A stretch of DNA of 64,000 nucleotides from Xylophilus sp. ASV27 (GTDB taxonomy: Bacteria; Pseudomonadota; Gammaproteobacteria; Burkholderiales; Burkholderiaceae_C), in NCBI RefSeq assembly GCF_016428875.1, contig NZ_JAELTO010000008.1:1-64000 (forward strand), given 5' to 3'. A program made the position numbers and the translations under genes. A model generated the notes under the pieces. That model saw only the letters and a list, made by a program, of their open reading frames with translations. It did no database searches and was not told the origin of the DNA. This document shows positions 2,878 to 56,350 of the stretch, in pieces; position 1 is the stretch's first letter; each line of letters starts with the position of its first letter.

Positions 2878-2887
2878 TCCCGTTGCC

Positions 2888-3006
2888 GCTCCCCCTGTCC
2901 TCGGTACCTGAGAGATTCACCCCGCAACGGTTGCGGGGCTTGCTCCTTCGGTGCGTGGCGGGCGGCCCCCATGGGACATGGGGCGCGCCGCGACGTCTCT
3001 CCAGAC
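2888..3006 (-). ncRNA. Glycine riboswitch (single aptamer)
   Basis: The minus strand carries the conserved glycine aptamer segments in order: GGAGAGAC (about 2998-3005), GCACCGAAGGAGCAAG (about 2938-2954), a GC hairpin around 2920-2938, then AATCTCTCAGGTACCGAGGACAG (about 2894-2917). It binds glycine and controls the downstream dadA-type gene. Only one aptamer is seen; there is no second CCGAAGG core before the start codon. Glycine riboswitches usually control gcv genes or glycine transporters, so this target is unusual. Confidence 0.9.
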
Positions 3007-3165
3007 GGCATGTGACTGATGTTGCAGTACCAGACCGTTGTCGGGACGGCCCACCTGAGCGTTCATGGGAGTTTGCGCCTTCGGTGGAATGGCGTGGCCG
3101 CCATTCGCTCTCCTGCTGCCCGCGATTCTACGGTGCCGGCGGCGGCGCTGCCAAGCCGGCGCGGA

Positions 3166-3768: not shown

Positions 3769-5718
3769 ATGCCCGATTCGCTTTCCGTGCCGGCCGACAC
3801 GCCGGTGCATCCGAACCAGTTCGCACTGCTGCGCCAGCGCCGCTTCGCGCCCTTCTTCTGGACCCAGTTCGCGGGCGCGGCCAACGACAACCTGTTCAAG
3901 TTCGCCTTCACGGTGCTGGTCACCTACCAGCTCAGCGTGTCGTGGCTGCCGCCCTCCATGGCCGGGCTGGTGATCGGGGCGCTGTTCATCCTGCCCTTCC
4001 TGCTGTTCTCCGCCACCTCGGGGCAACTGAGCGACAAGTACGACAAGACCCGCATGATCCGGTTCGTCAAGGACCTGGAGATCGGCATCATGCTGCTGGC
4101 GGCTGCGGGTTTCCTGCTGGGCCAGGTGCCGGTGCTGCTGGCCTGCACCTTCCTGATGGGCCTGCATTCCACGCTGTTCGGGCCGGTGAAGTTCGCCTAC
4201 CTGCCGCAGGTGCTGCATGCGCGCGAGCTGACCGGCGGCAACGGCGTGGTCGAGATGGGCACCTTCGTCGCCATCCTGCTCGGCAACGTGGCGGGCGGCC
4301 TGCTGGTGGCCGTGCCGCAGGTCGGGCCGGCCTGGGTGGCGGGCGCCTGCGTGGCGCTGGCGCTGGCCGGGCGCGCGGTGGCACAGGCCATCCCCCCGGT
4401 GCCGGCCACGGACCCGCAGCTCGTCATCAACTGGAATCCGCTGAGCGAGACCTGGCGCAACCTGCGGATCGCGCGGCGCAGCCCGGTGGTGTTCCGCTCG
4501 CTGCTGGGCATCAGCTGGATGTGGTTCTTCGGCGCGGTGTTCCTGAGCCAGTTCCCGAGCTTTGCCAAGGAGGTGCTGCACGGCGACGCGCACGTGGCCT
4601 CGCTGCTGCTGGTGCTGTTCTCGATCGGCATCGGCGTGGGCTCGCTGCTGTGCGAGGTGCTGAGCCGCCGCCACGTGGAGATCGGCCTGGTGCCGGTGGG
4701 CGCCATCGGCATGAGCGTGTTCGCCGTGGACCTGTACTTCGCCTCGCGCGCCCTGCCGCCTGCGGCGGAGATGGGCGTGGCGGATTTCATCGCCCGCCCC
4801 GCCCACTGGCGCGTGATGGCCGACCTGGCGCTGCTGAGCCTGTTCGCGGGGCTCTACAGCGTGCCGATGTACGCGCTGATCCAGTTGCGCAGCCAGCCCA
4901 CGCACCGCGCGCGCATCATCGCCGCCAACAACATCCTCAATGCGCTGTTCATGATCGCCAGTGCGATCATCGCCGGCGGCCTGCTGGCGGCGGGCTTCAG
5001 CGTGCCGCAGATCTTCCTGTTCACCGGCCTGGCCAACGCCGTGGTCGCGGCCTACGTCTTCCTGCTGGTGCCCGAGTACCTGCTGCGCTTCATCGCCTGG
5101 GTGGCGACGCATTTCGTGTACCGCTTCCAGATCCGTGGCGAGGAGCAGATCCCGGCGCACGGCCCGGCCGTGCTGGTGTGCAACCACGTGAGCTTCGTCG
5201 ACCCGGTGCTGCTGATGGCGGCCAGCCCGCGCCCGATCCAGTTCGTGATGGACCACCGCATCTTCGCCACGCCGGTGCTGGGGTGGTTGTTCCGGCTGGT
5301 CAAGGCGATCCCGATCGCGGCGCGCAAGGAGGACGCGGCCGTCTACGCCGCCGCCTTCGAGCGCGTCGCGCAGGCCCTGCGCGATGGCGAGCTGGTGGCG
5401 ATCTTCCCGGAAGGCGGCATCACCGAGGACGGCGAACTGCAGCCCTTCAAGGGCGGCATCATGAAGCTCCTGGAGCAGGCCCGGGCCGACGGCCTGCAGG
5501 TGCCGGTGGTGCCGATGGCGCTCGGCAACCTGTGGGGCTCGTTCTTCAGCCGCATCGAGCTGCGCGGCGGACGGCGCGCCGCCATGGTCAAGCCGTTTCG
5601 CCGCGGCATTTTCAACCGCGTGGCGCTGGAGGTGGGCATGCCCGTGCCGCCCGACCGGGTTCAGCCCGCCGCGCTGCAGGCCGACGTGGCGCGGCTGCTG
5701 CGCCGGGCCGCGGCCTGA
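3769..5718 (+). CDS. LplT-like MFS transporter fused to PlsC-type acyltransferase
   Basis: A 649-residue fusion. Residues about 15-440 are an MFS transporter of the LplT type (lysophospholipid flippase), with about 12 membrane segments and the loop motif SGQLSDKYDKTR. Residues about 450-649 are a glycerophospholipid acyltransferase with the NHVSFVD active-site motif near 471 and FPEGG near 546. In E. coli these functions are split between LplT and Aas. Here the Aas acyl-ACP synthetase domain is missing, so the acyl donor must come from elsewhere. The likely role is retrieval and re-acylation of lysophospholipids at the inner membrane. The start at 3769 follows an AGGAG site. Its stop is directly adjacent to the convergent Bug gene's stop. 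Confidence 0.87.
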   Translation: MPDSLSVPADTPVHPNQFALLRQRRFAPFFWTQFAGAANDNLFKFAFTVLVTYQLSVSWLPPSMAGLVIGALFILPFLLFSATSGQLSDKYDKTRMIRFVKDLEIGIMLLAAAGFLLGQVPVLLACTFLMGLHSTLFGPVKFAYLPQVLHARELTGGNGVVEMGTFVAILLGNVAGGLLVAVPQVGPAWVAGACVALALAGRAVAQAIPPVPATDPQLVINWNPLSETWRNLRIARRSPVVFRSLLGISWMWFFGAVFLSQFPSFAKEVLHGDAHVASLLLVLFSIGIGVGSLLCEVLSRRHVEIGLVPVGAIGMSVFAVDLYFASRALPPAAEMGVADFIARPAHWRVMADLALLSLFAGLYSVPMYALIQLRSQPTHRARIIAANNILNALFMIASAIIAGGLLAAGFSVPQIFLFTGLANAVVAAYVFLLVPEYLLRFIAWVATHFVYRFQIRGEEQIPAHGPAVLVCNHVSFVDPVLLMAASPRPIQFVMDHRIFATPVLGWLFRLVKAIPIAARKEDAAVYAAAFERVAQALRDGELVAIFPEGGITEDGELQPFKGGIMKLLEQARADGLQVPVVPMALGNLWGSFFSRIELRGGRRAAMVKPFRRGIFNRVALEVGMPVPPDRVQPAALQADVARLLRRAAA

Positions 5719-6835: not shown

Positions 6836-6890
6836 GAAAAAGGCCTGTAGCCCTTGTATATCCTGGACTTATAGCTATCAAAAACGTAGT
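6836..6890 (+). repeat. Class A palindromic repeat, copy 1 (degenerate)
   Basis: A degenerate copy of the dispersed element described under the copy at 53653: GTAGCCCTTG...CCTGGACTTATAGCTATCAAAAA. The central stem has decayed, but the AT-rich TATAGCTATC arm is kept. It lies just upstream of the ribosome site of the interrupted zinc-ribbon gene. Confidence 0.65.
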
Positions 6891-13529: not shown

Positions 13530-15785
13530 ATGTCCGCGCTGCCTTCGCCCGCCCCCGCTCCCGCCGCCGCGCCACGGCCTGCGCCGGCGAAGAAGGCGGC
13601 CGCCAGCCCGGCGCGGCAGGCGCTGCTCAAGCTCGGCCTGCGCCGCGACATCGACCTGGCGCTGCACGTGCCGCTGCGCTACGAGGACGAAACCCGCATC
13701 CAGCGCATTGCCGATACCCGCCATGGCGAGACGGCGCAGGTGGTGGGCACGGTGGTGCACAGCGAAGTCGTGCTCCAGCCCAGGCGCCAGTTGAAGGTGC
13801 TGATCGACGACGGCAGCGACACGCTGGAGCTGCGCTTCTTCACCTTCTACCCCTCGCATCGCAAGGCCCTGGCCGAGGGCGCGCAGGTGCGGGTGCGCGG
13901 CGAGGTGCGCGGCGGCTTCGCCGGCCGGCAGATGCTGCACCCGGCCTTCAAGCCGGCGGATGCGCCGCTGCCCGCCGGCCTGACGCCGGTCTACCCGGCG
14001 AGCGCGCAACTGCCGCAGGCCTATCTGCGCAAGGCGGTGCAGACCGGGCTGTCGCGCGCCGACCTGTCGGAGACGCTGCCGCCCGGCGCGCCGCCGTATC
14101 CCGGCGGCCCCGGGATTTATGGCAAAAAAGGCCCGCAGCCCAGGTGGAGCCTGGGCGACGCGCTACGGTTTTTGCACTACCCCGCGCCCGATACCGCGCT
14201 GGCCACGCTGGAGGACCGCAGCCACCCGGCATGGCAGCGGCTCAAGGCCGAGGAACTGCTGGCCCAGCAGCTCTCGCAGCTCGAAGCCAAGCGCGCGCGC
14301 GACGGCCTGCGCGCGCCGCTGCTGCAGGCCGCGTCCGATGCCGATGCGCTGCCGGCGCAACTGCTGGCCGCGCTGCCGTTCGACCTGACCGCCGCGCAGC
14401 GCCGCGTGGTCGAGGAGATCGCGCAGGACCTGGCGCGCCCCGCGCCCGGCGGCGGCGCCGTGCCCATGCACCGCCTGCTGCAAGGCGACGTCGGCGCCGG
14501 CAAGACCGTGGTCGCGGCGCTGGCGGCCTGCATCTGCATCGAGGCCGGCCACCAGTGCGCGCTGATGGCGCCGACCGAGATCCTGGCCGAGCAGCATTTC
14601 CAGAAGCTGGTCGGCTGGCTCGCGCCGCTGCTCGCCGCGCGCGGCCTGCAGGTGGCCTGGCTCACCGGCAGCCAGAAGAAGAAGGAGCGTAGCGCCGCGC
14701 TGGAGCGGGTGGCCAGCGGCGAGGCCGCGCTGGTCGTCGGCACGCACGCCGTGATCCAGGGGTCGGTGCTGTTCCGCCACCTCGCGCTGGCCATCATCGA
14801 CGAGCAGCACCGCTTCGGCGTCGCGCAGCGCCTGGCCCTGCGCGGCAAGCTGCAGGGCGGCATCGCCGCCGGGCCGCCCCAAGGCGATGCAGCCCCCTCG
14901 GGGGGCAGCGACCCGCGCAGCGGCGGAGCGTGGGGGCATAGCCTCGCCGCCGAGCCGCACCTGCTGATGATGACCGCCACCCCCATTCCGCGCACGCTGG
15001 CCATGAGCTACTACGCCGACCTGGACGTCTCCACCATCGACGAACTGCCGCCCGGGCGCACCCCCATCGTCACCCGGGTGGTGGCCGACAGCCGGCGCGA
15101 CGAGGTGGTGGCGCGCATCGGCGCGCAACTGGCGCAGGGCCGGCAGGTCTACTGGGTGTGTCCGCTGATCGAGGAGAGCGAGGCGGTGGACCTCACCAAC
15201 GCCACCCAGACCCACCAAGACCTGCAGGCCGCGCTGCCGGGCGTGGCCGTGGGCCTGCTGCATTCGCGCATGCCGCCGGCCGAGAAGAAGGCGGTGATGG
15301 CCGAATTCAGCGCCGGCCGCATGGGCGTGCTGGTCAGCACCACGGTGATCGAAGTCGGCGTGGACGTGCCCAACGCCTCGCTCATGGTCATCGAGCATGC
15401 CGAGCGCTTCGGCCTGTCGCAACTACATCAGTTGCGCGGGCGCGTGGGCCGCGGCGCGGCGGCCTCGGCCTGCGTGCTGCTCTACGCCCCGCACGAGGGC
15501 GGCCGCGTCAGCGAGGCCGCGCGCGAGCGCCTGCGCGCCATGGCCGAGACCCACGACGGCTTCGAGATCGCCCGGCGCGACCTGGAGATCCGCGGGCCCG
15601 GCGAATTCCTCGGCGCGCGCCAGTCCGGCGCCGCGCTGCTGCGCTTCGCCGACCTGCAGGCCGACGCCGACCTGCTGCAGTGGGCGCGCGAACTGGCGCC
15701 GCGCATGCTCGATCTGGACCCCGACCTGGCCCGCCGCCACGTCGAGCGCTGGCTCGGCGGCCGGGCGGAATTCCTGAAAGCCTGA
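13530..15785 (+). CDS. recG: ATP-dependent DNA helicase RecG
   Basis: A 751-residue RecG, the branch-migrating helicase that regresses stalled forks. An N-terminal wedge OB fold is followed by helicase motifs: GDVGAGKT at 319-326, [17 protein letters not shown], and the C-terminal [13 protein letters not shown]. coli RecG is 693 residues. Most of the excess lies in two low-complexity insertions at about residues 190-215 and 446-474, each coinciding with a dispersed repeat (see 14119 and 14866). The first 35 residues are Ala/Pro-rich. The start at 13530 follows a GGGGAGGG stretch. oxyR lies downstream, an arrangement seen in other beta-proteobacteria. Confidence 0.95.
14119..14175 (+). repeat. 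Class A palindromic repeat, copy 3, inside recG
   Basis: GCCCAGG (14138-14144), TGGA, then CCTGGGC (14150-14156), flanked by an A-run on the left and GGTTTTTGC on the right, matches the dispersed class A element. It is read in frame within recG as roughly residues 197-215, in the linker between the wedge and helicase parts, where other RecG proteins have a short connecting segment. Confidence 0.55.
14866..14940 (+). repeat. GC-rich repeat inside recG
   Basis: GCCCCCTCGGGGGGC (about 14890-14905) followed by AGCGACCCGCGCAGCGGCGG and AGCGTGGGGGC resembles a GC-rich repeat that I associate with intergenic regions in Comamonadaceae. It is translated in frame as a Gly/Pro/Ser/Ala-rich loop, between the DEQHRFG block and [10 protein letters not shown], replacing a loop of about 10 residues in E. 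coli RecG. Confidence 0.5.
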
Positions 15786-19562: not shown

Positions 19563-20510
19563 ATGACCGCACTCGTGCCGCAGCGCGGCCGCCTCGGCCT
19601 CTACCTCGACCTGATTCGCTGGGACCGGCCCGCCGGCTGGCTGCTGCTGCTGTGGCCCACGCTGTCGGCGCTGTGGGTGGCCAAGGGCGGTTTCCCGGGC
19701 TGGCACCTGCTGAGCGTGTTCGTGGGCGGCACCTTCCTGATGCGCAGCGCCGGCTGCTGCGTCAACGACGTGGCCGACCAGGAGTTCGACCGCCACGTCA
19801 AGCGCACGGCGCTGCGCCCGGTGACCAGCGGAGCGGTGTCGGTGCGCGAAGCGCTGCTGCTGGCCGCGGTGCTGGCGCTGGCGGCCTTCGGGCTGGTGCT
19901 GACCACCAATGCGGCGACGGTGGTGTGGTCTTTCGCCGCGCTGGCGATCACGCTGATCTACCCCTATGCCAAGCGCCACGTGGCCATGCCGCAGGCGGTG
20001 CTGGGCGTGGCTTTCAGCGCCGGCATACCGATGGCCTTCACGGCGGTCCAGGGCAGCGAATCATGGCTGTTCACCGCCATTCCCGGCGACGACGGCCTGT
20101 GGCTGGCCGCGATAGAGGGCGGCGTGCCGGCGGTGGCCTGGTGGCTGGTGCTCGGCAACCTGTTCTGGGTGCTGGCCTATGACACCGAGTATGCGATGGT
20201 CGACCGGGACGACGACCTGAGGATCGGCATCCGCACCTCGGCCATCACCCTGGGCCGCTTCGATGTGCCGGCCATCGTGCTGTTCTACCTGCTGTTCCTG
20301 GGAATCTGGGCCGTGGCGCTGCACCGCTACGCGCTCGGCACGGTGTTTCATGCGGCCCTGGGGCTTGCGCTGGCGCAGGTGGTCTGGCACTGGCGCCTGA
20401 TACGCAGCCGCACGCGCGAGGGCTGTTTCCGCGCCTTCCGCGTGAACCACTGGCTGGGGCTGACCGTGTTTGCCGGCATTGCCGCGGGCTTTGCACTTCA
20501 GAAGGGCTAA
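19563..20510 (+). CDS. ubiA: 4-hydroxybenzoate polyprenyltransferase
   Basis: A 315-residue integral membrane prenyltransferase that attaches the polyprenyl chain to 4-hydroxybenzoate in ubiquinone synthesis. Both aspartate-rich motifs are present: [15 protein letters not shown] (about residues 66-80) and [13 protein letters not shown] (about 206-218). About eight membrane segments are seen. It is convergent with proC; the two stop codons are separated exactly by a 161-bp MITE. Confidence 0.95.
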
Positions 20511-20671
20511 GGCAACGCTGAACAAGCCCCTCGCGTGCCGCGCTTCCCTGCCGTGGGCGGTCTGCGGCCTTGCAAATCCTCGCCATGGCGACGGCCATGG
20601 CTGCGGTGTGCGCCTTGCATCCCGTCCCACACCAGGGCGCGCGCCACCACGGGGATTTATTCAGCGTTGCC
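20511..20671. mobile_element. 161-bp MITE with CTAA target duplication
   Basis: The ends are inverted repeats: GGCAACGCTGAACAAGCCCC (20511-20530) against the complement of 20651-20671 (GGCAACGCTGAATAAATCCCC), with 12 perfect terminal bases. CTAA flanks both sides (20507-20510 and 20672-20675), a perfect 4-bp YTAR-type target duplication as made by IS5-subgroup elements. No coding potential. It inserted at the ends of ubiA and proC, and the duplicated CTAA now supplies the TAA of ubiA and the TAG of proC. Confidence 0.85.
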
Positions 20672-21520
<849 letters not shown>

Positions 21521-28078: not shown

Positions 28079-28163
28079 AACACCCCCGAAGCGCTTTCGG
28101 CGCCTTCCCCTCAAGGGGGCGCCACCAGCGGCCCGGCAAAGCCGGTTCCGGGGTGGCCCGCGC
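28079..28163 (+). repeat. GC-rich repeat within the glp operon
   Basis: ACACCCCCGAAGCGC...CCCCTCAAGGGGGCGCC...GCGGCCCGGCAAAGCCGG...CCGGGGTG. The segment CGGCCCGGCAAAGCCGG recurs at about 56314-56330. The C- and G-rich ends can pair across the element. It separates glpQ from glpU (141 bases), the only long gap in the transporter operon. Confidence 0.6.
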
Positions 28164-56261: not shown

Positions 56262-56350
56262 CCAGGCTTGCCCACTGCGTGTGGCCGCCAACCCCCCGCC
56301 GGGGGCGGCACCGGCGGCCCGGCAAAGCCGGCTCCGTGGTGTCACCGGCA
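56262..56350. repeat. GC-rich repeat between livM and livH
   Basis: CCCCCCGCCGGGGGCGG followed by CGGCGGCCCGGCAAAGCCGG and CTCCGTGGTG. The 17-base core CGGCCCGGCAAAGCCGG is identical to that at 28079-28163 in the glp operon. Confidence 0.6.

Follow-up and report, generated by a model that had tools for sequence, protein, structure and literature searches.

The recG gene of Xylophilus sp. ASV27 contains two in-frame segments that resemble two different dispersed repeats, and it raises the question of whether, and how, genomic repeats have become part of this protein. We address the question in the window, by which we mean the whole stretch of DNA analyzed (64,000 nt, positions 1 to 64,000 of contig NZ_JAELTO010000008.1, forward strand), as well as in recG genes and genomes of related bacteria (G and L handles denote genomes and loci). 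The features of the gene are as follows, in window coordinates:

13530-15785, + strand: recG coding sequence, 751 aa, with the ATG start picked by eye
14114-14177, + strand: segment A as a whole, a class-A-like stretch plus adjoining native codons
14114-14156, + strand: left half of segment A plus the palindromic core (residues about 195-209)
14138-14156, + strand: class A palindrome core GCCCAGGTGGAGCCTGGGC, exact, its right arm overlapping native RecG codons
14157-14177, + strand: native codons for D-A-L-R-F-L-H, with an unusual TTT TTG; the class A right end is also resembled
14860-14937, + strand: segment B, a class B repeat (residues 444-470; 84 nt, or 28 codons, more than in short-loop congeners)
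14860-14890, + strand: class B stem I, arms GCATCGCC / GGCGATGC and conserved loop GCCGGGCCGCCCCAA, the arms covarying between copies
14892-14906, + strand: class B hairpin II, GCCCCCTCGGGGGGC

The encoded protein qualifies as a RecG helicase: its RecG_wedge, DEAD, Helicase_C, and RecG_dom3_C domains all score above the Pfam cut-offs, and the top solved-fold match of its predicted model is RecG itself (1gm5). In an AlphaFold2 model built with 20 sequences, pLDDT falls below 50 at residues 1-19, 195-201, 443-470, 690-704, and 747-751; segments A and B are each predicted to be disordered in part, and the stretch at 443-470 is flanked by a helix (431-442) and a strand (477-483). The loop holding segment B lies between what we take to be helicase motif II (DEQHRFG) and motif III (TATPIPR). 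Much of the first-pass annotation is borne out at this level: both segments match dispersed repeats (the class A core exactly, and each segment by blastn within its own genome), their residue ranges were placed about correctly, and both stand out against a solved RecG, 9wm0 (residues 441-472 of the Xylophilus protein have no aligned counterpart, and a 10-residue gap coincides with segment A).

Segment B and the class B repeat

The motif II-III loop comprises 37 residues in the window but 9 in the congeners G212 and G133, both of which lack the 28 codons of segment B, and the G212 flanks share 93% amino-acid identity with the window RecG. A third congener, G276, has a long loop of 41 residues that is unrelated to class B. 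The proposal that segment B is a repeat insertion is thus supported, in a loop that is predicted to be disordered. Within the host genome, blastn places the region 14865-14955 at four other sites (best E = 3.3e-11, 80%), and the recG copy alone is within three mismatches of the class B core; class B is therefore dispersed in its own genome by virtue of diverged copies, together with copies in other genera.

The class B core is present in 58 of the 299 genomes of the window's family (controls, 0), and, over its 44 positions, it recurs outside recG in other genera (reversed-pattern controls, 0). Copies arranged in arrays are spaced 81-87 nt apart in six genomes (G021, G155, G169, G197, G101, and G056); at L234 (G021 C42:8131-8430), four units follow one another in tandem with a period of about 85 nt, and three of these share their stem I arms. 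The recG copies show four arm types (GCATCGCC-like, TTCCAGC in G147, GATTCGCC in G048, and GCTTCGCC in G129), and the arms are complementary save for single mismatches in some copies. Pairing of stem I reaches 0.96 over seven positions in the 13 recG copies (shuffled mean, 0.82) and 0.84 in 42 copies outside the recG loop (shuffled, 0.60). Nine carrier genomes hold 24 core matches, 9 of which are within recG: the recG copy is the sole match in G000, G076, G147, and G064, one of two in G126, G172, and G079, one of three in G118, and one of 11 in G021. In three more carriers, the core pattern misses the variant recG copy, with one match elsewhere in G003 and none in G129 and G048.

No target duplication was found around the inserts. 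A candidate, TCGCCGCC, which flanks the window copy on both sides, was rejected by eye, its left occurrence belonging to class B and its right one being absent from the other carriers compared; likewise by eye, the stem arms were not taken from the target, as the short-loop relatives compared are without them. Selection of class B for openness in six frames was also considered and discarded, for all six frames are open but composition shuffles average 5.2 (P = 0.43). At gathering scores, Rfam 15 returned no family at segments A or B, and over 17 repeat-bearing loci at E ≤1, it gave three matches, none of them a family of class A or B copies (a tRNA-Sec gene, which adjoins rather than lies inside the class B copy of L226, and two sub-threshold matches). 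Structured elements elsewhere in the window comprise tandem glycine riboswitch aptamers (2885-3125, - strand; Rfam, the second barely over its gathering score), a match to the Rfam family Bcj11 (4457-4578, + strand; 83 bits), and an inverted repeat of 40 nt that is 75% complementary, with 95 nt between its arms (20504-20678).

RecG is one of several class B hosts, being frequent among the sampled rows, which were chosen for recG. From 30 loci with the class B core, ten were selected for a coding-like frame across the repeat, and nine of these were run on Pfam. The repeat occurs in both orientations. It interrupts or is contained in a Pfam domain of CreD (L224, inverted), a phosphotransferase-family protein (L227), an acyl-CoA dehydrogenase (L232, inverted), an HI0933-like oxidoreductase (L241, inverted), and the RecG of G013 (L249, inverted). 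In three other proteins, its position is next to domains or between them: an SNF2 helicase (L223, from G169, with two tandem units in frame, inverted), an FAD oxidase/Fe-S protein (L229), and a Fic protein (L245). A coding-like frame also crosses the class B copy in an ABC ATPase gene (L221), and at L231 (G155), a gene like that of the FAD oxidase/Fe-S protein of L229 has two tandem units in frame. The inverted copy in G013 occupies a second RecG loop, near Pantoea residues 472-474, as do inverted copies in G039 and G274. The RecG proteins of these last two carry two repeat inserts each; that repeats were tolerated twice in RecG, as first proposed, fits the window gene and has these two parallels.

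The history of class B within recG was followed on a quick maximum-likelihood tree of RecG (134 sequences and 579 columns, loops removed), with family labels assigned by peptide motifs. The 13 carriers are scattered over this tree: their distribution takes 12 changes against a mean of 12.6 for shuffled labels (171 of 500 shuffles gave 12 or fewer), and the nearest relative lacks the insert for 11 of the 13, with G172 and G079 nearest to each other. A single ancestral insertion whose nucleotide sequence was maintained (by concerted evolution or by structure at the RNA or DNA level) and which disappeared repeatedly, from G212, G133, and G061 among others, would require 35 losses to account for all 13 carriers. 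The likeness of the copies speaks for it: nine carriers have near-identical inserts with one arm type, and their pooled pairs agree in 0.914 of codons at identical residues in the insert versus 0.711 in the flanks (for the window and G021 alone, the excess is not significant; P = 0.26). Between the window and eight full-length carriers, third positions are identical in 0.88-1.00 of cases within the insert and in 0.62-0.74 within the flanks; over all 66 pairs of 12 carriers, this identity averages 0.787 and 0.656, respectively, with the insert higher in 52; partial or variant copies reach 0.67 (G147), 0.85 (G003), and 0.50 (G129) relative to the window. The one arm type, together with a similar right flank in several carriers (xSVx or like it, preceding EPH), favors shared descent, and the distinct arms of G147, G048, and G129 favor separate insertions. 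Moreover, dispersed copies across genera are equally alike at the core, such that descent within recG is not needed to explain the likeness. We consider a single origin possible but doubtful, and lean toward several gains of class B in recG combined with some inheritance, loss, or exchange.

Exchange could also have been the main route, if recombination that uses the conserved codons of motifs II and III as anchors carried the insert from one species to another; the conserved flanking motifs, patchy distribution, and near-identical inserts would all be consistent with this. Over the 25 codons on each side of the insert, agreement with the window exceeds that in the remainder of the gene by 0.04-0.09 in 8 of 8 carriers and shows the same excess in 1 of 4 insert-free relatives, which is a weak hint, in that it draws on 40-45 codons per pair and may reflect rate variation along the gene, and in that near-flank values overlap (0.74-0.81 in carriers versus 0.65-0.80 in insert-free relatives). 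Such a route appears unlikely to us. Both this history and that of a single origin concern class B, and both are compatible with a motif II-III loop that is permissive to inserts. A further reading, which we judge quite improbable, is that class B retains its mobility and favors recG as a target. At least four lineages would then have received independent copies at almost identical positions in this loop, all with one orientation and frame, making the loop a landing site instead of a merely tolerant one, with stem I arms renewed upon copying.

Repeat families in the motif II-III loop

Our recG sample has one row per genome (129 rows, or 134 with outgroups, including a few duplicates, such as L027 = G186 and L025 = G170) and consists mostly of the best-scoring genes among the matches listed, together with those broken near residue 443; loop frequencies are accordingly those of the sampled rows, not of the whole family. 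Compared with Pantoea RecG, 65 of 133 recG genes have at least 8 extra residues at motif II-III, and 56 have at least 15. The A site has at least 8 extra residues in 82, and at any single site other than the motif II-III loop, at most 6 of 133 genes have 15 or more.

By motifs that were composed after inspection of the loops, 30 of the 54 distinct loops of at least 24 aa (in recG among the matches listed) belong to four repeat families: 13 to class B, 9 to a G-rich hairpin, 6 to family E, and 2 to the TTCGACA element. As controls, the same motifs were run on other recG segments (10 matches among 699), on codon shuffles (58 among 1,080), and on reversed loops (8 among 54, all but one in the G-rich class). 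In permissive blastn searches against flanking DNA (E ≤0.01), loops and decoys do not separate (33 of 54 versus 133 of 216), whereas at a threshold of 1e-6, which was picked afterwards, 14 of 54 loops and 0 of 216 decoys have matches.

Among the host genomes, G117 contains 173 copies of the TTCGACA element, and G101 contains 101 (controls, 0). Copies of the G-rich hairpin number 18 in G063, 31 in G274, and 23 in G039 (controls, 0) and are scarce in other hosts (5 in G081, 2 in G292, 1 in G006, which is recG itself, and 0 in G209). By a strict pattern, family E is represented by recG alone in G038, G142, and G186, by nothing in G226 and G017, and by two places in the Xylophilus genome; the window contains two family E copies on the - strand (28130-28150 and 56316-56336), each with CGGAACCGGCTTTGCCGGGCC or a sequence near it followed by a C-run/G-run hairpin; RecG loops of other genera also hold this family. 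Classes B and E are built alike, with a stem followed by a CCCCC..GGGGG hairpin, and the class B loop of G048 looks, by eye, intermediate between them; the two classes may be related, which would leave three or four origins for the loop repeats. An abundance of repeats does not force an insert, as G212 has 114 TTCGACA and 33 G-rich copies in its genome and a short RecG loop nonetheless.

That 24 of the 54 long loops fall in none of the four families indicates that ordinary linker growth also occurs. Carried further, this would make all of the loops GC-rich linkers of Gly, Ala, and Pro, lengthened by slippage and similar to repeats in appearance only, and the unclassified loops, as well as internal tandem codon repeats in the G005 and G075 loops, are in keeping with such growth. 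For class B, this is contradicted by the recurrence of the core outside recG in other genera and its absence from the reversed controls, and for the TTCGACA element, by the G117 and G101 loops, which hold elements with more than 100 copies in their hosts. As a general account of the loops, slippage is very improbable; for the short G-rich class and family E, it may apply.

Segment A and the class A palindrome

Segment A has a different background from segment B. The class A core was searched as GCCCAGGN5CCTGGGC with at most one mismatch, a pattern that is self-complementary, such that each place shows on both strands; it occurs at 268 places in the Xylophilus genome, the recG copy included, compared with 0 for the reversed control. 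By blastn, the recG stretch itself matches two other places in the genome (E = 2.4e-6, 84% over 43 bases, and E = 3.5e-4). Seven more class-A-like copies are found in the window, at 6838, 9629, 21615, 45886, 46547, 49210, and 53669, some only 64-69% alike.

The suggestion that segment A is a copy dropped into this particular RecG is not supported. The A-site span is 54 residues in the congeners G212, G133, and G276, equal to that in the window, and the palindrome's right arm is largely built of native-type codons (S-L-x-D-A-L-x-F-L-H) that are present with small changes in relatives. Since the A loop is equally long in three congeners, segment A is old and no fresh insertion; the near-perfect palindrome arises because a class-A-like left half abuts native codons. 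The F-L beside segment A is coded TTT TTG in 61 of 78 recG genes with a long A loop and in 2 of 19 with a short one, against expectations of 6.7 and 0.3, an excess that is inflated by relatedness.

Class A cores are lineage specific, GCCCAGG..CCTGGGC in this genus and AGCGCTT..AAGCGCT in Acidovorax-type genomes, and a loose class A pattern matches 28 of 32 genomes, with six genomes having three or fewer matches, near the controls (0 or 1). We used weight matrices, recording the best match over both strands of each recG; six of 24 class A loci that were not class-A-looking were excluded from the matrix, and exclusion of A loops of 45-49 aa left 86 of 117 rows. With a matrix from 19 other-lineage copies, the A site is where recG best matches the left half of class A in 30 of the 49 genes whose A loop is long and in 2 of the 37 whose A loop is short (44 of 117 overall); with one from 15 own-genome copies, these numbers are 24 of 49 and 0 of 37 (29 of 117 overall). 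The A site of G212 scores 29.3 by the own-genome matrix versus 16.2 by the other-lineage matrix, and those of L015, L019, G021, and G172 score higher by the other-lineage matrix than by the own-genome one. Conservation of a segment in lineages that lack the repeat, which the first-pass annotation had named as evidence against insertion, was encountered in small part for segment A: the A site of G118 is weakly class-A-like (6.8) yet is the best match of its gene with the own-genome matrix, in a genome with no class A matches, and the genome of G133 has one. Judged from sequence comparison, segment A is better viewed as an old stretch that the left half of class A would either have given rise to or have overwritten, and the likeness of segment A to the core of each lineage may reflect later overwriting by genomic copies.

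Origin of the segments and known repeat systems

Taken together, we regard it as probable that segment B entered by insertion into a permissive motif II-III loop, that segment A is an older relic, and that selection acted as a filter. Segment B would be an in-frame and probably recent insertion of a short, nonautonomous, structured repeat (class B, about 81-87 nt), the window copy more plausibly representing a gain than relatives a loss. The motif II-III loop would serve as a permissive acceptor, taking in repeats of four families in frame within this bacterial family, and segment A, in the linker that joins the wedge domain to the helicase domains, would be a class A relic. The repeats presumably moved by copying, perhaps aided by a transposase; the inserts may be near neutral, and survivors would be those that kept the frame and landed in disordered loops.

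In-frame repeats in repair genes are already known, from the rickettsial palindromic elements (RPEs) of Rickettsia and from intragenic REPs. In the parts of PMC2229807 and PMC10969869 that concern RPEs, several palindromic families are described in frame in genes for conserved proteins and are apparently tolerated. Like class B in RecG and other hosts, an RPE is palindromic and contributes an in-frame peptide to conserved proteins, but RPEs are 105-146 bp long and rickettsial, whereas class B is about 81-87 nt long, GC-rich, and found in Burkholderiales. REPs of the GTAG and CGTC superfamilies are small stem-loops that bear an unpaired GTAG or CGTC tag, the GTAG type being accompanied by a RAYT transposase. 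Intragenic REPs, as set out in the main text of PMC3733652, are numerous in replication and repair genes (UvrABC, UvrD, RecBCD, and DnaE2), perhaps in linkers or loops, with some ORFs struck twice; their presence in repair genes is suggested there to be non-chance and possibly to change repair. Here, one RecG loop has been taken by several families; RecG has no occurrence in that main text, the gene list being in its supplement.

The BRE section of PMC3110155 describes a GC-rich element of 75-91 bp that forms tandem arrays in Comamonadaceae and occurs between genes and sometimes wholly within coding sequences, and RecG goes unmentioned in that section. Class B may be this published BRE, as compared by description: its unit of 81-87 nt in arrays fits the size and the tandem habit, the family in which it occurs is placed with Comamonadaceae by named relatives, and both have copies within genes. 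Among the matches listed in the open-access literature, we found no paper on repeats in RecG of the window's family and, by title and abstract, none related to the TTCGACA repeat. New here are the repeated use of one RecG loop and the existence, within one genus, of alleles with and without the insert.

The conversion of genomic repeats into parts of proteins is a known but little-understood route, and the RecG loop is a case in point. With insert-bearing and insert-free alleles in one genus, and several repeat families in one inter-motif loop, neutrality and altered function are simple to compare.
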